Assembly (NCBI RefSeq): GCF_028712425.1 | Contig: NZ_JAQTQD010000007.1 | Coordinates: forward strand, 56,859-120,858 | Source: Methanoregula sp. | GTDB lineage: Archaea; Halobacteriota; Methanomicrobia; Methanomicrobiales; Methanospirillaceae | Direction of reading: 5' to 3' | DNA length: 64,000 nucleotides | Shown here: piece after piece, positions 1,151-20,776 of the stretch | Position numbering within the stretch: the stretch's first letter is position 1 | How the letters are laid out: each line of letters begins with the position of its first letter | Notes under the pieces: generated by a model | Seen by the model: the letters and a program-made list of their open reading frames with translations, nothing else | Databases searched by the model: none | What the model was told of the DNA's origin: nothing | Position numbers and translations under genes: made by a program

Positions 1151-1997
1151 TCAGATCCTGATGAGCTCGTAGTTGCTGCTGCCCATCCCGATCTCCTCGC
1201 CGTACCGCACCTGCCGGTACCCGTCCGTCTGCTCATGGACGCCCGTGAACTTATCCTCGCCCGGGTGATGGTGTGCAGTGAGGAGCGAGTCCTTGTATCC
1301 CTGCTGCTGGTTCACGAGATCGAAACTCGCGGCATCGATTGCCACCGGGTCCTTCGATGCAAGGATCCCGATATCCGGCACGATCGGGGCGTCAGAAAAC
1401 GGGAAACAGTCGCAGTCCGGTGTGATCCGGATCAGGAAGTTCATGAACCCGACCTTCTTCTCTTTCCCCTTCACCGCCCCGTACGCGTACTCAACCATCC
1501 GCTCCATGAACTGCGGGATCTCGGTCTCCCAGTCAATGTCGATCGCATGCTCCGGGCAGGCGTGCATGCATTCGAAGCAGCCGATGCAGAGCTCGCGGTC
1601 GATCACGGACTTTTTCTTCTTCACGGTTATCGCGTCTTTCGGGCAGACCTTCAAGCACGAAGCGCAGCCCGTGCACTTCTCCGGAATGGTGAATGGCCGG
1701 GCATTGTGCTGTGCCCGCTTCCCTTCCGGTGGAGCACAGCCCATGGCCATATTCTTGATCGCTCCCCCGAACCCGGAGACGATGTGGCCCTTGAAGTGGG
1801 AGAGTACGATCATGCTGTCCGCTGCTGCAATATCTCCGGCAATTGTGACTTCTTCGAAATGCTTCTTGCCTATGGCTACCTTCCGGACATTCTTCCCGTT
1901 CAGCCCGTCCGCAATGATGACCGGTGCGCCCGCCACGGCAAAATCGAACCCGTGGGAGATCGCGGTGCCGATATGTTCGACAGCGTTCGACCGTGCC
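1151..1997 (-). pseudogene. DUF362 / 4Fe-4S protein, C-terminal part separated by the integrated element
   Basis: The C-terminal 281 codons of a DUF362-family iron-sulfur protein. The family block SHFKGHIVSGFGGAIKN is followed by two ferredoxin motifs, CTGCASCLKVCP and CIGCFECMHACP, so two 4Fe-4S clusters are expected. The frame is open only back to a TAA at 2030-2032 and has no ATG. The first residues, ARSNAVEHIGTAISHGF, match the interior of the family just after a TNTLYLG block. That missing block ends the separate N-terminal fragment at 8204-8456. Joining the two at the shared 7-bp core gives an unbroken 368-residue protein. The exact substrate of the family is unknown; an electron-transfer role is inferred. 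Confidence 0.9.
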
Positions 1998-2004
1998 CCC
2001 AGGT
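1998..2004. other. Left attachment core
   Basis: CCCAGGT on the plus strand (ACCTGGG on the coding strand of the DUF362 gene). The same 7-mer occurs at 8197-8203. Flanking bases differ, which places the crossover within this heptamer. Confidence 0.75.
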
Positions 2005-2058
2005 CGGGTGAACTTTTTCCGGGTTGGAATTATCCGTTTTCCAACCTTCTTTTGTCAA
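1999..2058 (-). pseudogene. Putative 5' end of the integrase gene, displaced by integration
   Basis: A TTG at 2056-2058 begins 20 open codons (MTKEGWKTDNSNPEKVHPTW) that reach the attachment core. In the present arrangement the frame enters the host gene out of register and soon stops. In a circle closed at the core it continues as AYSFRGRHPTDSQ and joins the integrase frame without a stop, adding 51 residues before the ATG at 8104. Seen directly: the open frames, the core and the start signals. Inferred: that this is the native start of the integrase. Confidence 0.6.
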
Positions 2059-2110
2059 AATCGAACCTCCTTGGGTTCTGATCAGTAGATCGGCGCGATC
2101 CGAAATAAAG
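2059..2110 (-). promoter_or_regulatory. Promoter and Shine-Dalgarno for the circular-form integrase
   Basis: On the minus strand AAGGAGG (2066-2072) lies 7 nt before the TTG at 2056-2058, an ideal spacing. A TATA-like CTTTATTT (2103-2110) lies about 48 nt before the TTG. In the integrated state these signals drive only a short dead frame; in the closed circle they would drive the full integrase. Confidence 0.55.
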
Positions 2111-2482
2111 TTATGTAAGCCGGGATGGGGAGTTTTGTAAATCCAGCATCAAAGGGAAAATGCGCGGGGCCGGGAAATGTCCTGTGGCACGGGATAAAAC
2201 AACATACTTCTATCGTGATATGAGGTGTTTCCTTATCCCAGATCCTCTTGGGATTACTGTTGATTTGATCAAAACAAAAAATATCTTGGGCGTATTGTTA
2301 GAAAAAACAGGAAATTTTTATGGTTTTTTTTGTCTAAGAATCGTGACAATTCTAATTCATGTTGTTACGGGGGAGACCTCCGTAGTTTTCCTTATTGTTC
2401 CACACGTATTTTACGGCATCATTTTTTGAAGAACAACAGGAAAAAGCGAGAACAATAGGCTCGATAATACGAAATGAAAAAG
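2111..2482. other. Left non-coding end of the element
   Basis: This stretch lies between the integrase start signals and the end of the endonuclease gene. It has AT-rich and poly-A/T runs. A plus-strand frame of 89 codons (2160-2429) has no recognisable motif and I do not call it a gene. Confidence 0.4.
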
Positions 2483-3316
2483 TTATTTTTTACGGGTTAA
2501 ATGATAGAGACGAATTTCCTTTATTCCATTTTCATTAATTTCTGTTGTATTCTTAAATTCAATCAAAAAAATACGATTTCTATCAATTGGTTTAGCACAT
2601 ATCGGGCGACAAATCAGATCGGGGAAGTTTTGTTTGGCGAATTCAACCATGCTCGTGATTTGTACCCATCCCAATTTATCACGTTCTTGAGGACTTTTGG
2701 CTTCAAGAGGGAAAATGTATTTTTTACCTTCTCGATCAATCCCTACATAGATTTCATCAATTTCAATTTGGCCCTTATTTTTTATCGTGGTTCTAATATG
2801 GGATTGCAGAGGAAAGCAAGTGACTTTAGTAAAAATATCAATTAGCCGGTTATACCTGATAGACGATAATAATCCTTGTTCATCTTCAGCTGAATAATCT
2901 TCAACAATTTCTGGAAGTGAATTTAGAATTTCAATTTCGGATAATCCATCCTGTATTGAGATAAAGGGAGATTTGTTGATTTTTACAAACGCATATTTTC
3001 CCTTACCTCTTGGTTCGATGATCCAATTTCCAGTTTTCAAGATTTTTTCAGGGAAATCGCCACGTGATCTATATGTGTAAATGATATCCGGAACATTTTT
3101 CGCCTTGATTCCTAGTGATTCACCAGACTCAACTAACTCTGTTTTTAAAAATGGAAATTCCGTAATTGTTTCAGAATTTGTTTTTGGATATTTTTTGAAA
3201 AAGAGATCTTCAATTACTTTATCGTATTGAGACAATTCTTCATGAGTAATTGTATCCGCGTTACTAGTGTCTTCATCTTCGAGTTCTTCATCGGTTTTAT
3301 TTCTCTTTTCTTTCAT
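2483..3316 (-). CDS. Putative restriction endonuclease (PD-(D/E)XK-like)
   Basis: A 277-residue protein encoded 13 bp after a DNA methyltransferase on the same strand. The C-terminal half has an acidic strand EIDEIYVGIDREGKKY followed by PLEAKS, which fits the D...ExK core of PD-(D/E)XK nucleases. A later Q in WVQITSMVEFAKQ is also typical. The N-terminus is very acidic and could be a linker. The ATG at 3314-3316 follows GAGGGG at a usable distance and is preferred to a TTG three codons upstream. The gene is much more AT-rich than the host genes, which fits recent transfer. The endonuclease role is inferred from the motif and the partner gene; the target site is unknown. Confidence 0.65.
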   Translation of the reverse strand: MKEKRNKTDEELEDEDTSNADTITHEELSQYDKVIEDLFFKKYPKTNSETITEFPFLKTELVESGESLGIKAKNVPDIIYTYRSRGDFPEKILKTGNWIIEPRGKGKYAFVKINKSPFISIQDGLSEIEILNSLPEIVEDYSAEDEQGLLSSIRYNRLIDIFTKVTCFPLQSHIRTTIKNKGQIEIDEIYVGIDREGKKYIFPLEAKSPQERDKLGWVQITSMVEFAKQNFPDLICRPICAKPIDRNRIFLIEFKNTTEINENGIKEIRLYHLTRKK

Positions 3317-3329
3317 AATTAACAACCCC

Positions 3330-4676
3330 TCATTGATTTTCGAGAATTATTACATTTTCATCAATTGAACGCGAAGTAGCAGTTGCATATCGGGTTCTCC
3401 ACAGTTCAATTTCAGATACCTTGTACCCTAATGACTCTGCAACTTCACCTAACAAATCCGCAGTCGGGATATACGTCTGGAAGAACGACATTTGATCCCC
3501 AACAACATACGCCAGCTTTGCATCGGGAGATAAAAACGGTTTCAAGGTTTTCAGGTGAAGTAACATGCCCCCAAAATAATGACGAACAATCTTATGGTAC
3601 TGTTTTTCAAATCCTGATGTTTTATTCATCCGAATCCTTTTTTCCTCAATTTCATCAGCAATTTTTTCAATACTCTCGAATTTTCTTACATATTCGCCAT
3701 CAGTATCATTTACGAATATATTGCGTGAGTTGCTTCTGAGTAGGTTTTCCTTCATTGATCGCAATTCCTGCTTATTTTGGATAAATCCAAGGAGCACACT
3801 CTCTAATCGTGTACTTCGTGTGTAATCTTTCTCATTTGGATACGGGGGTGATGTAATAACACAATCAATTTTTCCTTTTAAATCGGAATTTAAACAACTA
3901 TTTACGTCTCTTGAATCTCCATGAACTATATTTGAAATATTACGCCCATTTTTAAATAATTTTATATCTTGGATCATATGGTCCGTATTTACGCTGTAAT
4001 ACGACAATGCATCGATATCCACTTTTGCCTTTTTCCGATATATCTCAGGTCCAAACCCGATATTCCCTGCACGTTTAACAATCAAATTAGCTAATGACAA
4101 TGTGAAAAAGGCCCGAACCTCGTTATCTTCGATAGTGTCGATAATCGTTTTTAAAATTTGAACTTTGTACAGGGGTTTTTCACTAATGAATCCCGCTGGA
4201 ATTATTTTTTCTTGTTCTTCTGTCAATCTTGGAATTTCTTTGATTATGATTGGATCTTGTTGAGATTCCAAAGGAGTTAAAAAAGCAATTCCATCCGAGA
4301 TATGGTGATAATTGAACGAGTAATTCGCCGATTGAACAATGAATCCAAGGGTATCAGATAATTCCGATGGATCTAGTGCAAGGTTGGTTTTCACGGTTGA
4401 GGCAAAATAAGCCATATTATTCGCTTCGATACCCCAATTAGCAATCCCACACTTCATACATTCAACGGGGGTGGTACCAGTCCCACAAAATGGATCCAAA
4501 ACGAGATTACCACGGTGAATGTTGAATTTTGATAAATAATATTTTACTAAGTGGGGTGGATATCCTAAAACAAATTGATACCATGAATGGATGGGGGTAT
4601 CTACGAGTTGCAGCTTATTTTTCTTTCCATTATCGATGTCGGTGTGGATAAAGGAAGCTTCTTTCGATCCAATCAT
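3330..4676 (-). CDS. DNA methyltransferase (N4-cytosine/N6-adenine type)
   Basis: A 448-residue S-adenosylmethionine-dependent DNA methylase. The SAM-binding motif DPFCGTGTTPVECM lies near residue 60 and the catalytic motif TSPPYPNEKDY near 285. The SPPY form favours N4-cytosine methylation, but N6-adenine cannot be excluded. Motif I comes before motif IV with a long insert between them that could hold the target-recognition domain. It precedes the putative endonuclease by 13 bp, so the two form a type II-like restriction-modification operon. AT-rich composition sets it apart from the chromosome. Confidence 0.88.
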   Translation of the reverse strand: MIGSKEASFIHTDIDNGKKNKLQLVDTPIHSWYQFVLGYPPHLVKYYLSKFNIHRGNLVLDPFCGTGTTPVECMKCGIANWGIEANNMAYFASTVKTNLALDPSELSDTLGFIVQSANYSFNYHHISDGIAFLTPLESQQDPIIIKEIPRLTEEQEKIIPAGFISEKPLYKVQILKTIIDTIEDNEVRAFFTLSLANLIVKRAGNIGFGPEIYRKKAKVDIDALSYYSVNTDHMIQDIKLFKNGRNISNIVHGDSRDVNSCLNSDLKGKIDCVITSPPYPNEKDYTRSTRLESVLLGFIQNKQELRSMKENLLRSNSRNIFVNDTDGEYVRKFESIEKIADEIEEKRIRMNKTSGFEKQYHKIVRHYFGGMLLHLKTLKPFLSPDAKLAYVVGDQMSFFQTYIPTADLLGEVAESLGYKVSEIELWRTRYATATSRSIDENVIILENQ

Positions 4677-4775
4677 TTCCGTAATCTCTGATGAATAATA
4701 TGTGGCATAGATAATTTAATACTCTGTTAAGGTCTGTGAAAAGAACTAAACGTGGACTGATATAAGCATAATATA

Positions 4776-5441
4776 ATGAGTGTATTGATAATCACAGAGG
4801 ACACTGCGACAAAACTACCTCAAGTCGATAAATGGACCACCCCAATACGAAAAGGGCAAGATATCGAAAAAAATATTGAGTTAGTTCAATTATTAAAGAC
4901 ACATAATTCAACAATTCCATCAGATGACCTCAAAAAAGAAAAGGCATATAAAACCATTTTAAAAAAATACATTCGACCTGCAAAGTACATGTTTTCCGCC
5001 GTGTTTTCCGAAGTCCGTGATTTTTCGGATGAATCAGCGGAACTCACAAGAACCGACCTATATATTATATCTGGACGATATGGATTAATTAATGGAAATG
5101 ATGAGATTATCCCGTATTCAAAAACTGTGAAAACAAGTATCGAATTGGCAGAGCTCGATAGAAAAACTGATTTTGTAAAAAATATTCAGACGCTCTTAAA
5201 CCAATACTCAATAATTATTTTTTTACTACCGAGTGAATTCATAAAATTTTTTTTAATTGTAGGTTTTTTTGATTCTATCCCAAAAAAACAAACAGTGATA
5301 ATTGTCACCAGTACACAAAATAATACAATTTTAGGAAAATATCCGAATTTTATAACCTTATCTCGAAAAGGATTGGCACGACTTGGTGCGATCAACCGGG
5401 AAAAAATTATTGATCTAATTAAAAAAAAGAATACCTCATAA
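4776..5441 (+). CDS. YaaA/DUF6884-like protein of the element
   Basis: A 221-residue protein transcribed divergently from the methyltransferase. The central segment DLYIISGRYGLINGNDEIIPYS resembles the 'sakhgl...d.ei.pYd' block of YaaA/DUF6884 proteins, which often sit beside restriction and DNA-modification genes. The C-terminal segment LSRKGLARLGAINREKIIDLI could be a small helical domain. No membrane segment or signal peptide is seen. The biochemical role is unknown; the family link is a motif-level judgement. Confidence 0.6.
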   Translation: MSVLIITEDTATKLPQVDKWTTPIRKGQDIEKNIELVQLLKTHNSTIPSDDLKKEKAYKTILKKYIRPAKYMFSAVFSEVRDFSDESAELTRTDLYIISGRYGLINGNDEIIPYSKTVKTSIELAELDRKTDFVKNIQTLLNQYSIIIFLLPSEFIKFFLIVGFFDSIPKKQTVIIVTSTQNNTILGKYPNFITLSRKGLARLGAINREKIIDLIKKKNTS

Positions 5442-5490
5442 CTTCCCCAATTAAAAAATGAGGGTTTTTATAATTATCTGCTAAAATCCT

Positions 5491-5856
5491 TCAGAGATTT
5501 TGTTTGTTCAACCGTTTCTTCAACCGCTGCTTAATATTGCAGGTTGTCGCTGTACACCCATCATCCGTTGTTGTCTTATCAGGTTCACTTACTGTTCCTT
5601 CAGAAGTCTCACCCGGATCCTCGGCCACCTTTGCTCGAAGGGATTCATCGTAGATAGGAATCCGCCGACACTGCTTAGTTTCACCGGTAATAACATCTAC
5701 ATCACATTCCAAAAGGGACAGCGTCTTTCTTGTACCTGATGCGGATGTTTCCGTCTGCGATACCTTCATCTGCCCTGCGGTAGATGAAATTTCCTTGGGG
5801 GTGCTCTGTTCAGATTGTACCCTGGAACGAGACTCCCCCAGATCTTCTTTTGTCAT
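5491..5856 (-). CDS. Unknown acidic/polar element protein
   Basis: A 121-residue protein starting MTKEDLGESRSR, with AGGA 7 nt before the ATG at 5854-5856. It is rich in Ser, Thr, Glu and Gln. It has one CDVDVITGETKQCRR segment, a C-terminal DDGCTATTC segment and a basic tail IKQRLKKRLNKQ. It looks largely disordered. I do not recognise a family. It lies downstream of the small winged-helix gene on the same strand and may be in its operon. Confidence 0.5.
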   Translation of the reverse strand: MTKEDLGESRSRVQSEQSTPKEISSTAGQMKVSQTETSASGTRKTLSLLECDVDVITGETKQCRRIPIYDESLRAKVAEDPGETSEGTVSEPDKTTTDDGCTATTCNIKQRLKKRLNKQNL

Positions 5857-5956
5857 GTTTTTTCCTATGTGATTGAACACATTGCAACTGATTTACGCAA
5901 CAGCTGGCGAATTCTTATATCGATAATGATCTGTTACCTGTCAAGTTCCTTATTCA

Positions 5957-6286
5957 CTACACAATATCGCCCCCCAATTGAGAGTATTCCCCGTTGGTAG
6001 TCGGAGAGTTTCGAAAAGGAGGCTGTCCTATGGGTGTGGGTATAGATGCCATCACGGCACCCCGCACCCTCTTGGAATAGCGTGTAGCAAGACGGTAGCG
6101 TATCGGAGTATCTCCTGATGCCCGGAGGATCATTTTGTCCCCATACAACCGGAAGAAGATTGCACGGTCGAAGCCCGGTATCTCGCTGGCCTGTTGGAAT
6201 GTGAAGTGGCGGTACCCGAACCTGTTATGGATATCCCTGAACAGATCGCCCTTATGGCTGCCCATGCCGCGAAGGGTCATGCTCAT
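5957..6286 (-). CDS. Small winged-helix-like element protein
   Basis: About 109 residues from the ATG at 6284-6286, which has GGAGG 8 nt upstream. The segment GYRHFTFQQASEIPGFDRAI looks like a helix-turn-helix. The following KMILRASGDTPIRYRLAT could be the wing of a winged helix. The start overlaps the TGA of the upstream 58-residue gene (ATGA), so the two are translationally coupled. Its position downstream of the palindrome array at 6559-6722 makes it a candidate DNA-binding, excision or copy-control protein; that role is inferred. Confidence 0.65.
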   Translation of the reverse strand: MSMTLRGMGSHKGDLFRDIHNRFGYRHFTFQQASEIPGFDRAIFFRLYGDKMILRASGDTPIRYRLATRYSKRVRGAVMASIPTPIGQPPFRNSPTTNGEYSQLGGDIV

Positions 6287-6459
6287 AAGCGGTCCTCCGC
6301 TGGTTTGGTCGGGTTTTCGACAACGATTCTCTTCTCTTTCAGAACGCATTCGCCACGGCCCACGAGTATGTCAACTGTCAGCTTGTGAAGAGGGCTGGGA
6401 AGATTGTCATACTGTGCACGGGTCAAAACAAATTTGTCACAGTTGTTGATTTCTTTCAT
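6283..6459 (-). CDS. 58-residue element protein
   Basis: A short frame begins MKEINNCDKFVLTRAQYDNL and ends EDRL, with its TGA overlapping the ATG of the winged-helix gene. The overlap and the charged, coding-like composition support a real gene. The start is uncertain because no Shine-Dalgarno precedes the ATG at 6457-6459. Family unknown. The upstream region holds the element's palindrome array, so it may be the first gene of a regulated operon. Confidence 0.55.
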   Translation of the reverse strand: MKEINNCDKFVLTRAQYDNLPSPLHKLTVDILVGRGECVLKEKRIVVENPTKPAEDRL

Positions 6460-6498
6460 AAAAAGAAGTGGAAATCCAGCTTACATAAGCATTTTGGG

Positions 6499-6538
6499 CA
6501 TTATTTGAGCGTTAAATTGAAATTGCGCTTAAATAATG
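6499..6538. repeat. 13-bp inverted repeat
   Basis: CATTATTTGAGCG (6499-6511) is followed by CGCTTAAATAATG (6526-6538); 12 of 13 positions pair. It lies between the palindrome array and the small operon, so an operator or transcript hairpin is possible. Confidence 0.6.
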
Positions 6539-6558
6539 TCTCAAAAATGGAATTCAAC

Positions 6559-6722
6559 TGTCCATGGACGGACAATTTTTCATTTTCCGGAAAATTTTCT
6601 TGTCCATGGCAGGACAGTTTGTCAAGGCACCTGATCGGTTTTTGTCATTGCAATGACAAGTAAGTGTCATTCCATGGACATTTTTGACAACAGGACGTGA
6701 TTTTGCTGTCAGTATGCTGACA
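6559..6722. promoter_or_regulatory. Array of five 16-bp TGTC...GACA palindromes
   Basis: Five boxes share the plan TGTCM-N6-KGACA: 6559-6574, 6601-6616, 6643-6658, 6665-6680 and 6707-6722. Start-to-start distances are 42, 42, 22 and 42 bp, close to whole helical turns (four, four, two, four). The third box is part of a perfect 18-bp palindrome, TTGTCATTGCAATGACAA. Regular phasing fits cooperative binding by a dimeric protein on one DNA face. Operator, iteron-type origin and recombinase or excision-factor sites are all possible. Confidence 0.8.
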
Positions 6723-6865
6723 CAATTATTTTTTAATTTTATGATAAATTTTCAAATCTTTGGATTTATCGACGATAAAAACTAAAACTCACATTTGTCA
6801 GTGCGGATCGATAGCGCAGACGCGCGGAAAAATGTTGAAAAAAGAAATGATGATATCGGGAACAG

Positions 6866-8104
6866 CTACGGTGCCGCTTCTTCCATCTGGGCTGCCTTCA
6901 TGGTCAGCTCCGCGACAAGTGACTTAAACACCGGGTTCTGCTCGATCTTCTTCACTACCTGCTCCATCGTTCGTTCCTCCGTTTCAGACAGGGGCATGCC
7001 GCACGTTCCACAATACTTCACACCGGGCTCACATATTGCCTGACAGTTCCGGCACTGGGTAGCCACCATCAGGGACTTCTCCGAGTTCTTCGGACACGAG
7101 ATACCGTTCAGCCGGAGTATTTCGGCATCGACATCGGAACTGGATAGATGCGTGTAATTCCCGAGCATCTTCGTTGACTGCGATCCCCAGCACATCTGTT
7201 TCACAACGGCTTCGCTGCATCCCTGCTGGAGCAGGTGGGTGACTCTGCTGTGTCTGAAAAGATGGGGATGCATTCGCTTGGTTATGCCTGCACGAATGGC
7301 GATTTTCTTGAGCTGAACGTTGACCTGCCCGTGTTCGAGCGGCTTGTGCTGGTATGTGATGAACACAAGGTTTTCCCCACTGGATTCGTACGGGTAATCC
7401 TTCCGCCACGCGGCCAGATGCGGAACCGAGTTGACCAGCCGGACGTACCGCGGCTTTTCCGTCTTCTGGTTCGTATTGATCACGACACCGAGGTGATCGA
7501 ACTTCACCTGTTGCCATTCAAGACGGGCCATCTCGACGATACGGAAGCCGCCTTCGTACATGACACTGATCAGCGCACGGTCACGAGAGTTCCGGCATGC
7601 CGCTATCATGTCCAAGACTTCCTGCTCGGTGAGCAGGTCTTCAGCGGTCGTGCTCATGGTATCGGCACCCGGAGGTTTGATCTCCTTGATCTTGTCCCAC
7701 GGCAGAGTCGAATACTTGTTCCTGATCAGCCAGTGGTAAAACCGTTTCAGGAATGTGATGTAATCGCGGAGCGTGTTCTGCTTGATGGGCCGGCCAATGA
7801 AAAGGGTTGCTTTCCTCTTGGCAATTCCCTGATAGATGGAATCTACCGTGTTCTGGTCAAATGGCCCGATGAAACTACGCCAGTTCACGAGAACGGACAT
7901 GATCTTGAATGCCCGGGCCTCCCCGATATTGGCGATTACCCGGCGTTCATCAATGTACCGGGTGATCAGGGTGCGGTCGTTCTGCGTGAGCGAGCCGTGT
8001 TGCATCTTCCAATCAAGATGATCCTCAAGTGCATTCGGTTTCAGGATGTGAAATTCCCGGTCCTTGCGGGTCGGGGCATGCTGAATGTTCTTTTTTGCAT
8101 TCAT
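6866..8104 (-). CDS. int: Tyrosine recombinase/integrase with C-terminal zinc ribbon
   Basis: A 412-residue site-specific recombinase counted from the ATG at 8102-8104. Catalytic motifs include the first Arg in YEGGFRIVEMARLEW, HPHLFRHSRVTHLL (H-x-x-R) and the nucleophile in GNYTHLS. The N-terminal part holds a SAM-like core-binding domain. The C-terminus adds CRNCQAICEPGVKYCGTCG, a zinc-ribbon-type segment. No Shine-Dalgarno fits well at the ATG. The frame stays open upstream through 8131 to the attachment core at 8203, and in a closed circle continues to a TTG with a perfect Shine-Dalgarno at 2058. It probably catalyses integration and excision of this element. In the integrated state it may be read from the DUF362 promoter. 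Confidence 0.92.
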   Translation of the reverse strand: MNAKKNIQHAPTRKDREFHILKPNALEDHLDWKMQHGSLTQNDRTLITRYIDERRVIANIGEARAFKIMSVLVNWRSFIGPFDQNTVDSIYQGIAKRKATLFIGRPIKQNTLRDYITFLKRFYHWLIRNKYSTLPWDKIKEIKPPGADTMSTTAEDLLTEQEVLDMIAACRNSRDRALISVMYEGGFRIVEMARLEWQQVKFDHLGVVINTNQKTEKPRYVRLVNSVPHLAAWRKDYPYESSGENLVFITYQHKPLEHGQVNVQLKKIAIRAGITKRMHPHLFRHSRVTHLLQQGCSEAVVKQMCWGSQSTKMLGNYTHLSSSDVDAEILRLNGISCPKNSEKSLMVATQCRNCQAICEPGVKYCGTCGMPLSETEERTMEQVVKKIEQNPVFKSLVAELTMKAAQMEEAAP

Positions 8105-8177
8105 GCCGGGTGCGTCCCCGCTCGTAATCAAAAACCTAGCGGGTGCTCTGGACGGTTTTTGAGAGTCTGTCGGGTGT

Positions 8178-8456
8178 CTACCCCGAAAAGAGTACGCCCA
8201 GGTAGAGTGTATTGGTGTCGGTCAGAAATGGCAGGGCCTTGCATTCCTTCACCTTTTCAACAACCTGCCGCACGAACACCGGGCTGATGAACCCGTCGCT
8301 GCCTACCTCGCCGAAATGGAGCTTGATGGCAGTCTTGTCCTGCGGTGCAATGAGCTCGGAAAATCCGGCCTCGTCAAACAGCCGTCGCACTTTCTCCGTG
8401 GTGGCTTCCTTGTCGGAGAACGCACGGAGGCTGGAAAAATATACGGGACTCTTCAT
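8178..8456 (-). pseudogene. DUF362 protein, N-terminal part cut by the element
   Basis: The frame starts MKSPVYFSSLRAFSDKEATT, with GGGGAG 8-9 nt before the ATG at 8454-8456. It contains the family segments AIKLHFGEVGSDGFISP and LPFLTDTNTLYLG. The last native codon falls at the attachment core (8197-8203); the final VLFSG and stop come from element DNA. The remaining 281 codons lie at 1151-1997. The promoter and start are intact, so a truncated peptide and a transcript running into the integrase are likely. Confidence 0.9.
8197..8203. other. Right attachment core
   Basis: The second copy of CCCAGGT, in direct orientation to 1998-2004 and 6199 bp away. It sits at the last native codons of the N-terminal DUF362 fragment, about 93 bp upstream of the integrase ATG. 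Confidence 0.75.
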
Positions 8457-8578
8457 GGCGAATACTCCCCTGCGGGGAATGTTGACACCCATACCGTATA
8501 ATCCCGCCGGTTACTTCCGGAAATACTGTGGTGCTGCATCCTGCAGGAAACACCGGAATATGAACGAAAAAAAGGGGA

Positions 8579-17871: not shown

Positions 17872-19659
17872 ATGCAAAACAATCCGCTAAAAATTGAATT
17901 CAATCGATTGAAAGTGTTATTAACAGCGGAAGCGGAAAAAATCAAAAACCCGGAAAACAGGAATAAATTCGCTCGCTCTATTTGTCAATTAGTATTAAAG
18001 GAATTCTGGTCGGAAACTTGCACGAAGAATGGTTGTAACTGGAAGATATGCAAGTCATTTGTTCAGTTTGATAAACCAGAATCAACAGGTGAGTCGGAAG
18101 CCTGTGATGTTGGATCTATCCTAGCTCAACTTCCATTTTCTGAGAGCAGTTATCTTATCGGCACATTATACACTGCTTTATTACCTCAAGAAACTCAAGC
18201 GGATTTTGGTGCATATTATACTCCGCCCGCACTTGTCGATCGCTTAGTCGGTATGGTGACTGACCAAGGGTTTGATTGGAAAAATGGTACGGTAATGGAT
18301 TTGTCCTGCGGTGGTGGTGCGTTTCTCTCCCCAGTTGCTCTTCGGATGTTAGAGTCGTATTCTGTGAAAGATCGGGGTAATCCTTCCCGCATCATCGAGT
18401 TGATCTCCAAGAGGTTGCAGGGATTTGAAATTGATCCTTTTGCAGCATGGATGTCGCAGGTTCTTGTAGAGATTGTTTTGTTAGAAATCTGCATCAATGC
18501 ATCTACTCGACTTCCTATTATTGTGAATGTATGCGATACGCTCGAAACATTGCCAAATAATGGAGAAGAAGTCGATCTCGTAATTGGGAATCCACCATAT
18601 CGGAAGATTACACTTCCTCCGCATCAGAGAAGAATATTTTCCCGTTCGCTTTATGGACACGCAAACTTGTATGGTGTTTTTACTGACATCGCAATCCGTT
18701 GGACGAAGCCAGCTGGACTTATTGCTTATGTAACCCCAACTTCATTCCTTGGTGGGCAATACTTCAAATTCCTTCGTGCCCTCCTTTCCCAATATGCTCC
18801 ACCAGTGCTAATGGATTTTATTTCTGATAGGAAAGGCGTTTTTGAGGATGTCCTTCAGGAAACAATGCTTGTGGTGTACAAGCGTACAGAAAATGAAAAA
18901 GAAATCTCCCGCGATCAGTGGGTTACCGTTCATGATCTAAAATCAAATGGTCCTGAAAAACCTGTGGTGAGTGAAAGAATTGGCACATTTTTATTGCCAA
19001 ATAGTGGTGAGGAGCCATGGATCATACCGAAAGCACCAGATCAGGTTAAACTTATCGATAACCTCAAACGGATGCGGAATAGAATCGTCCACTTTGGATT
19101 TGAAGTCAATACTGGCCCGCTTGTTTGGAACCGACATAAAAATCAGATGAGTACTGAAAAACAGGAGGGAAATTATCCTCTTATTTGGGCTGAATCCATT
19201 CATCCAGATGGACGGTTCCTGTTTAGCGCGAAGAAACGAAATCATCGGCCATACTTAACGCTAAAGAGGAATCAAGAGTTTCTAGTAACGAAAAAACCAT
19301 GTATCCTTATTCAACGAACCACTGCGAAGGAGCAGAAAAAACGGATTGTTGCTACAACACTCCCAAAGGAATTTCTCCATATGCATGGTGGAGTAGTAAT
19401 TGAAAATCATGTGAATATTATCAAGCAGACGAAGAGTCCTTCCCTAGCCTCGCTTGAAACATTGGCTGTTTTATTGAATTCAAAAATGATAGACAAAATT
19501 TTTCGTCTGATTAACGGAAGTGTTGCGGTTTCGGCTTTTGAATTAAAAGCATTGCCATTACCAAACAAATCTGACATTAGACATCTCGAACAATTAATCC
19601 AAAGTGGCGTTTCGAATAGTGAGATTGAATTAGCTATAAAAATGATGTACGAGCGATAG
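17872..19659 (+). CDS. BsuBI/PstI-type DNA adenine methyltransferase
   Basis: A 595-residue gamma-class N6-adenine methylase. Before the SAM site comes GAYYTPPALVDRLV, then VMDLSCGGGAFL (motif I) and VIGNPPYRK (motif IV, NPPY). A C-terminal target-recognition region follows. It is AT-rich against GC-rich neighbours, a sign of transfer. The endonuclease gene starts 4 bp downstream. Partner identity suggests the PstI-like site CTGCAG, which is an inference. Confidence 0.9.
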   Translation: MQNNPLKIEFNRLKVLLTAEAEKIKNPENRNKFARSICQLVLKEFWSETCTKNGCNWKICKSFVQFDKPESTGESEACDVGSILAQLPFSESSYLIGTLYTALLPQETQADFGAYYTPPALVDRLVGMVTDQGFDWKNGTVMDLSCGGGAFLSPVALRMLESYSVKDRGNPSRIIELISKRLQGFEIDPFAAWMSQVLVEIVLLEICINASTRLPIIVNVCDTLETLPNNGEEVDLVIGNPPYRKITLPPHQRRIFSRSLYGHANLYGVFTDIAIRWTKPAGLIAYVTPTSFLGGQYFKFLRALLSQYAPPVLMDFISDRKGVFEDVLQETMLVVYKRTENEKEISRDQWVTVHDLKSNGPEKPVVSERIGTFLLPNSGEEPWIIPKAPDQVKLIDNLKRMRNRIVHFGFEVNTGPLVWNRHKNQMSTEKQEGNYPLIWAESIHPDGRFLFSAKKRNHRPYLTLKRNQEFLVTKKPCILIQRTTAKEQKKRIVATTLPKEFLHMHGGVVIENHVNIIKQTKSPSLASLETLAVLLNSKMIDKIFRLINGSVAVSAFELKALPLPNKSDIRHLEQLIQSGVSNSEIELAIKMMYER

Positions 19660-19663
19660 CATC

Positions 19664-20776
19664 ATGTCTGATATACAATCACCATCTTTACCGTCATTAC
19701 CTTCGATAGATGTGATCAATCAAAGGCTTCCTTTAATTTTCCCGATGGATACTGAACACCGAAGCCAAATTATTGGGAAAATGGCAGTTAGGACAATTTT
19801 TGTAATGTTTTATATTGGTGCAATAGAGGGAAGAAATGAATGGTTTCAACCGGCACACGTGCTCAATATGGATGATGCACGAGCATCAAGAACAAATGAA
19901 GAATCTCGTCGATCATGGGCCAAAAGGCGAGAATTTTCATCAGATCGGAGTCTTCATAAATGGTATGCTGACACCACAAAAGAATCAGTTCGAAAACAAG
20001 TGATCCTCTTCGGTCTAATCCCATTAGGAGCAGCAGTCAAAATCGATCTCGGCCAAGAAAATGAGCCGCGATATGCATTAGCACATGATTTTTCTATATT
20101 ATTTGATCAGGACCTTTCTGGAGAAGAGTTAACAAGAAAAATTTCTGAATGGCAACGGTCACATCTTACAAGAGCTGCATTGGGAGCGACCGCTTTAAGG
20201 GGATCGGATTCTGGTACTCGCCTTAAGGTCAAGATCCCAAACCACCAAATAATTAGTGAGATGAAATTACCTCCGGGAAAGAGTTCTCTCATTATCAAAG
20301 AAGTAATTGAAAAATTTTCAGAGAATTTTCTTCATGAACCTCATGTAATCGCTATCAGTACTTCTGAAGCACCATTTCAGCCTATTGATGATCAAGTTAT
20401 CCAAATTCTCAATTTAGATTTTTCAAGCGTTGTGCAGAAAAAAATTTTACCAGATATTATCCTGTGGGATAAATACCTAGATCACGGCCGTTCTGAGAAT
20501 TTATTAATATTCATCGAAGTTGTTGCATCAACAGGATCGATGATTCAAGAAAGAAAAGAGAATATAATGGCCTTTTTACGAACCAGAGAATATAATGCTA
20601 AAGTTGCATTCGGGACAGCATTTCTGAGCAGAACCGATGAGGCTTACAATAAAAAGAATATTGCTGAAATATCTTGGGGATCTTTTGTTTGGTTTGCTGC
20701 CGAACCCACGAATATCGTTATACTAAACCAAATGGATGCTGAAAATAATAAAAAATTGTCAGATCTAATCTTCTGA
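19664..20776 (+). CDS. BsuBI/PstI-family restriction endonuclease
   Basis: A 370-residue type II nuclease. The C-terminal half has the family blocks LPDIILWDKYLDHG, LLIFIEVVASTGSMIQERKE and VAFGTAFLSRTDEA, then ISWGSFVWFAAEPTNI. The D...EV(V/A)AS..G pattern is the PD-(D/E)XK-like catalytic centre. It lies 4 bp after the methylase, so the two form an operon. The family cuts CTGCAG; specificity here is inferred. Confidence 0.9.
   Translation: MSDIQSPSLPSLPSIDVINQRLPLIFPMDTEHRSQIIGKMAVRTIFVMFYIGAIEGRNEWFQPAHVLNMDDARASRTNEESRRSWAKRREFSSDRSLHKWYADTTKESVRKQVILFGLIPLGAAVKIDLGQENEPRYALAHDFSILFDQDLSGEELTRKISEWQRSHLTRAALGATALRGSDSGTRLKVKIPNHQIISEMKLPPGKSSLIIKEVIEKFSENFLHEPHVIAISTSEAPFQPIDDQVIQILNLDFSSVVQKKILPDIILWDKYLDHGRSENLLIFIEVVASTGSMIQERKENIMAFLRTREYNAKVAFGTAFLSRTDEAYNKKNIAEISWGSFVWFAAEPTNIVILNQMDAENNKKLSDLIF

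Follow-up and report, generated by a model that had tools for sequence, protein, structure and literature searches.

A 64,000-nucleotide stretch of DNA (the window; part of contig C32 in a 2.67-Mb draft assembly of 56 contigs) carries a 6,199-bp element lying between two minus-strand copies of ACCTGGG inside a host gene of the DUF362 family, which raises the question of how its tyrosine integrase came to place it there and whether integration cuts the integrase gene as well, as an earlier note on this DNA had proposed. We consider it highly probable that an element whose attachment site (attP) matches tRNA-Asp recombined into a secondary site in DUF362 and that its integrase gene stayed whole. 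In the mechanism we suggest from comparison of the sequences, the element's own integrase would have recombined attP into a DUF362 site having only the 7-bp ACCTGGG in common with it, these 7 bp presumably serving as the strand-exchange overlap; the integrase would start at ATG 8104, its promoter perhaps lying in the 92-bp leader that separates the gene from the core, and could still cut the element out again and thereby restore DUF362. The host itself is likely a methanogen of the Methanomicrobiales, because the integrase has its named homologues in Methanoregula, Methanolinea, Methanofollis and further members of that order.

The interrupted gene and its empty orthologues

Joining the flanks at the core yields an in-frame DUF362 gene of 380 codons from ATG 8492 with 4Fe-4S motifs, as the earlier note had seen, its 368 residues being the count from ATG 8456. 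Both copies of the core stand where the note placed them, and neither strand of window 1901-8300 holds a further one. The cut falls at codon 98-99 of 380, so that in the integrated state the 5' part keeps 99 residues and then reads five foreign ones before a stop codon whose last base is 8178. No second high-scoring DUF362 copy of this genome stands among the matches listed, and the gene should be without function for as long as the element sits in it. The 8-bp repeat CACCCGAC close to the element ends was also considered as a core and set aside, because on the integrase side it is internal to the element and rejoining there would not restore DUF362.

The search for an uninterrupted gene in related genomes, which the earlier note had recommended, drew on 30 DUF362 loci, one of them the window's own fragment; the gene is uninterrupted at the junction in all 29 orthologues that span the site. 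Intact relatives lacking the core had been named in advance as telling against the note's reading, and this is what most of them are: the 7-bp core is absent from 26 and present in three, a distribution that fits a secondary site. Among the three is the closest orthologue (G035, 93%), whose empty site TACCTGGGGGCACG lies at the same codons and differs from the restored site at one of the 27 positions counted from TACCTGGG onwards. In a draft of 56 contigs an assembly chimera, with the element not truly in DUF362, has to be weighed; however, one recombination event accounts for both junctions to the base and the restored site agrees with that of this relative, which makes a chimera extremely improbable.

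The attachment site and the host tRNA-Asp

The attP sequence, obtained by joining the two element ends in silico, no free circle having been seen, has 25 contiguous bp in common with the tRNA-Asp of the same genome and its 3' flank, CCGACCTGGGCGTACTCTTTTCGGG, of which the core ACCTGGG is a part, whereas the DUF362 site has only the 7 bp of the core in common with either. The contrast that the earlier note drew with elements using tRNA genes thus fails. The tRNA-Asp gene lies on the same contig (~13,421-13,495), is complete by ARAGORN and is the single match in the genome to the tRNA-Asp pattern at up to three mismatches; the search for integrase domains gave none near it, so the site is empty. 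The picture is that of a secondary site, with the cognate host site (attB) present and free and the site in use holding only part of the core. Thirteen bp of the 25-bp match extend beyond the tRNA and, among 73 loci with a tRNA-Asp end, are common only to this genome and G041; CGTACTCTTTTCGGG follows the tRNA-Asp end at just three of the 73, two of this genome and one of G041.

Two further lines of evidence come from relatives. Of 46 loci outside the element itself, the one that matches best at the DNA level (G048) has a decayed copy of a related integrase, 73% identical over 486 nt to the element DNA, and this copy starts exactly at the 3' end of a tRNA-Asp. The family, with relatives of the window integrase (P0001) in 87 of 108 family genomes when this one is counted, is habitually placed behind tRNAs: in 39 distinct pairs (duplicates removed; one tRNA, L196, without assigned identity) the integrase lies 34-87 nt behind a tRNA and in line with it, and the same arrangement occurs at 13 of 16 further loci of an order-level sample. 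A broader listing of 111 entries, which counts some integrases twice, holds 50 with a same-strand tRNA, three antisense, 48 with none (the window itself and many weaker matches included) and ten too short. Because of the 25-bp match, the empty tRNA-Asp, the copy at tRNA-Asp in G048 and the placement of the family behind tRNAs, we regard DUF362 as most likely a secondary site, a conclusion drawn from sequence.

Could DUF362 instead be the regular site of this lineage by now, its specificity already switched and the tRNA-Asp match ancestral? The core is present at DUF362 in the closest relative, and an integrase 95% identical (P0002) exists on other contigs, yet none of the 29 spanning orthologues is occupied and attP still matches tRNA-Asp over 25 bp, 13 of them beyond the tRNA; we judge a completed switch improbable. 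As a separate matter, the idea that an older element left a scar behind the host tRNA-Asp was examined and rejected, the similarity past the shared block being not significant in this genome (shuffle fraction 0.16); in G041 it is marginal (0.02).

Where the integrase starts

If integration cuts DUF362, does it cut the integrase too? The earlier note saw attP as probably lying inside the integrase coding sequence, with a 51-residue extension upstream of ATG 8104, and named the starts of homologous proteins as a check. We fetched 19 of the 120 listed among 533 homologues and compared the close ones as proteins. None of the six close homologues (71-95% identity) has the extension: P0002, P0004, P0005, P0006 and P0008 (410-412 aa) begin at the position of ATG 8104, and P0003 begins seven residues before it. 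The leader, moreover, lacks the codon periodicity of a gene, its substitutions between the window and G048 being even over the three codon phases (7/26, 6/26 and 6/27), while in the integrase body third positions are substituted in excess, as in coding DNA (29/118, 21/118 and 49/118). Nor is the integrase frame (frame 0) favoured in the leaders of the family, where it is open in 17 of the 39 pairs as against 21 and 22 for frames 1 and 2; the order-level sample gives 4, 6 and 7 of 13. On the strength of the homologue starts, the missing periodicity and the lack of enrichment of frame 0, the integration that cuts DUF362 probably leaves the integrase uncut, and the claim of an attP within coding sequence is not supported. 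The 412-aa frame from ATG 8104 is intact after integration and has the length of its close homologues, so that sequence comparison makes a start at this ATG, inside the element, the most likely one, with no splitting of the gene predicted.

The leader also offers a candidate promoter. Thirty relatives that begin with ATG have a T-rich box at -30 to -26, with T in 93% at -29, and the window has TTTTT at the same place (TTTTTGATTA from 30 nt before ATG 8104); -30 to -26 is the archaeal promoter position for a leaderless message. Two points weigh against this picture of the start. By a promoter model built on the leaders of 25 of the 30 relatives the window's box is weak, scoring 0.44 against a training median of 9.6, a score reached by 5.1% of 2,177 ATGs (the value for G048, taken one base off its ATG, is left out of account); and one further homologue (P0007, 78%), on a contig of 1,320 nt, begins further in. 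TTG 2058, the start proposed by the earlier note, scores -4.17 with the same model, which is not suited to a start with a leader and a Shine-Dalgarno sequence.

The weakness of the near-arm promoter match is among the reasons to consider a state-dependent promoter switch, in which the integrase would stay whole and be driven by a far-end promoter in the circle and by a host promoter (that of tRNA-Asp or DUF362) in the chromosome, by analogy with ICEKp1, for which part of PMC13023037 describes such a switch for the integrase. The far arm would face the integrase in the circle with a TATA-like box and AAGGAGG, and the integrase lies downstream of DUF362 and in line with it; the near arms of the family, on the other hand, have a T-rich box of their own at a fixed distance from the ATG. 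We consider the switch rather unlikely, albeit compatible with integration of a whole integrase gene into a secondary site.

The open frame across attP

A case for a self-splitting integrase, translated from TTG 2058 through attP so that integration would cut both it and DUF362, is made by the frame itself. As the earlier note reported, closing the element ends leaves no stop between TTG 2058 and the integrase, so that the frame runs open across the core, with AAGGAGG 7 nt before the TTG. This and several further observations count against our reading of the start. In the window only frame 0 is open across attP, the other two being closed; frame 0 is open in all three relatives seen with leaders of at least 75 nt; and among the junctions for which frames were computed (those of the tRNA-Glu and G016 elements), it is open in the genome's own tRNA-Glu element and its tandem, although in G016 it is closed inside the core. 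The distance from core to integrase body in G048 is 123 nt, the same as in the window, because indels of +1, -3, +1 and +1 cancel, and the ATG of that copy is shifted by one base against the frame of its body; since the copy is decayed, with an in-frame TAG in this stretch and a truncated gene, it is no clean witness either way. A 490-aa homologue (P0040) has a long N-terminal extension containing IPIAAS, which we read as the translated 3' end of tRNA-Glu; the protein may read through such a junction.

Set against these are the absence of the extension from the six close homologues, the evenly spread leader substitutions, the TAG in G048, the lack of frame-0 enrichment in the family and the absence of a match to PF16795. 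A resemblance between the far-end peptides of the window and tRNA-Glu elements (DSN/NSN) was tried as proof of coding and rejected; we read it instead as a shared DNA motif, of the type GATT..AAC, found by eye in four of five far arms. The counts being small and the sequences related, we keep the self-splitting reading as an improbable alternative rather than discard it. Of the note's idea that one recombination event turns both genes off or on together, the half concerning DUF362 stands, as excision would restore it, whereas joint switching with the integrase is not supported. A narrower version, that a small long-leader clade of these methanogen integrases independently evolved a reading frame crossing attP codirectionally with the tRNA, a second and unrelated self-splitting kind of which one element in this genome would switch itself and a conserved Fe-S gene together, seems to us highly improbable. 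A short attP crossed by an open frame is, as this locus warns, weak evidence of a self-splitting integrase.

The integrase family and known systems

PF00589 (E ~1e-28) is the only Pfam domain in the integrase, and R221, K247, H314, R317, W339 and Y350 (P0001 numbering) are invariant in the alignment, an HxxR arrangement whose members we take to be the catalytic residues. The SSV-type motif is R...KxxR...Y and the pNOB8-type motif R...YxxR...Y according to part of PMC8371274, so the HxxR found here departs from both. The same source defines suicidal integrases by a split gene together with PF16795. With the SSV type the present element shares recombination at the 3' part of a tRNA next to the 5' end of the integrase and an open frame across attP; it differs in that a split is not supported, in that integrase and tRNA have the same orientation, and in lacking a match to that domain. 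To the classical archaeal integrative elements of PMC8371274 it is alike in the tyrosine integrase adjoining att, the tRNA 3' end as the likely cognate site (here the 25 bp in common with tRNA-Asp), the short common att and an integrase gene that stays open after integration; the present copy, by contrast, lies not in a tRNA but inside a protein gene, which it disrupts. Protein-gene targets are described for thaumarchaeal elements in the part of PMC6563490 drawn on here (14 of 68 in 3'-distal parts of protein genes, with short att sites). Short att, protein-gene target and empty site in relatives are features in common, but those 14 are reported from 3'-distal regions, whereas here the cut at codon 98-99 of 380 leaves the gene broken. 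ICEKp1 likewise has its integrase just inside its end, downstream of the target gene's promoter (PMC13023037, in part), and differs as a bacterial integrative and conjugative element in tRNA-Asn, the promoter switch being only a candidate here.

Switching of integrase targets is thought to go via secondary sites, for which section 17 of PMC8371274 names archaeal data from two fuselloviruses only, a secondary site being reported there for SSV1 and none for SSV2. The present element looks like a natural snapshot of such an event, with the cognate tRNA empty, the element in a conserved protein gene, a 7-bp match and empty orthologues. Among the matches listed by our searches of open-licence literature, none dealt with this element or with DUF362 as an integration target, and those for Methanoregula proviruses and leaderless integrases gave nothing on point.

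Protein targets are not new to the integrase family, because in two relatives (L187 and L188; G002 and G003) integrases of the family directly adjoin the 3' end of a protein gene whose last residues, read by eye, are NLLSSIRP. Five of the 12 elements examined (the genome's own tRNA-Glu element and those of G016, G033, G040 and G042) have a second copy of the tRNA end at their far side, 6.3-30.1 kb away. At that tRNA-Glu two elements of the window's family lie in tandem (G000:C1:17-1105 and 19527-20714; L036), and where the two meet the sequence imitates the junction of a circle. Beyond these genomes, a scan of viral contigs with P0001 gave six pattern stretches and no relative, one of wider genome contigs gave 31 stretches and two loci, both loci of one metagenome-assembled genome, and tblastn against phage and plasmid records gave 65 and 334 records, all below 60% identity.

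Layout and cargo of the element

Besides the integrase gene, the element carries genes for a type II endonuclease and a type II methyltransferase (both predicted); a further protein is weakly YaaA/DpdC-like, and two small open reading frames (ORFs) are without family (Table 1). The endonuclease and methyltransferase genes are neighbours (window 2483-4676), the arrangement of a type II restriction-modification system, which is what we predict this cargo to be from its sequence. The endonuclease has no Pfam match and no sequence match in the PDB, and it is present in two of the 108 family genomes, this one and G043 (67%).

Table 1. Features of the element and of the interrupted DUF362 gene (window coordinates)
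Feature	Position	Strand	Basis
DUF362 3' part, residues 98-380, two 4Fe-4S motifs	1151..2004	-	Orthologue comparison
att core ACCTGGG, far end; preceded by CACCCG	1998..2004	-	
attP far arm: inverted repeat GGTTGGAA-N8-TTCCAACC (by eye), TTG 2058, AAGGAGG, TATA-like box	2005..2125	-	
Predicted type II restriction endonuclease	2483..3325	-	PADLOC REase_II 4.5e-65
Predicted type II DNA methyltransferase	3330..4676	-	PADLOC MTase_II 3e-32
YaaA/DpdC-like protein, 221 aa	4776..5441	+	Weak matches, below Pfam and NCBIfam cut-offs
ORF, 129 aa, without family match	5491..5880	-	
ORF, 130 aa, without family match	5957..6349	-	
Tyrosine integrase, 412 aa from ATG 8104	6866..8104	-	PF00589
92-bp leader, core to integrase start, most likely non-coding; weak promoter-like TTTTTGATTA	8105..8196	-	
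att core ACCTGGG, integrase side; CGTACTCTTTTCGGG next inwards, as 3' of host tRNA-Asp	8197..8203	-	
DUF362 5' part	8197..8492	-	PF04015; comparison with orthologues

Other arrangements at tRNA-Asp came to light among the loci compared. In two genomes, elements of 5.4 and 10.1 kb lie between two tRNA-Asp 3' copies (L102:4024-9495 of G058 and L103:4121-14245 of G069), each having at one end an ORF that overlies the tRNA in antisense and at its opposite end an integrase-like ORF of 308 aa, and from their sequence these are perhaps SSV-type split integrases in methanogens; Pfam gives PF00589 on L103 at E 0.0046, below cut-off, and no match on L102 or in the antisense ORFs. In a third genome (G057) two minus-strand copies of the tRNA-Asp 3' end, one with two mismatches, stand 612 bp apart (L106:4297 and 4909), perhaps the remnant of an insertion.

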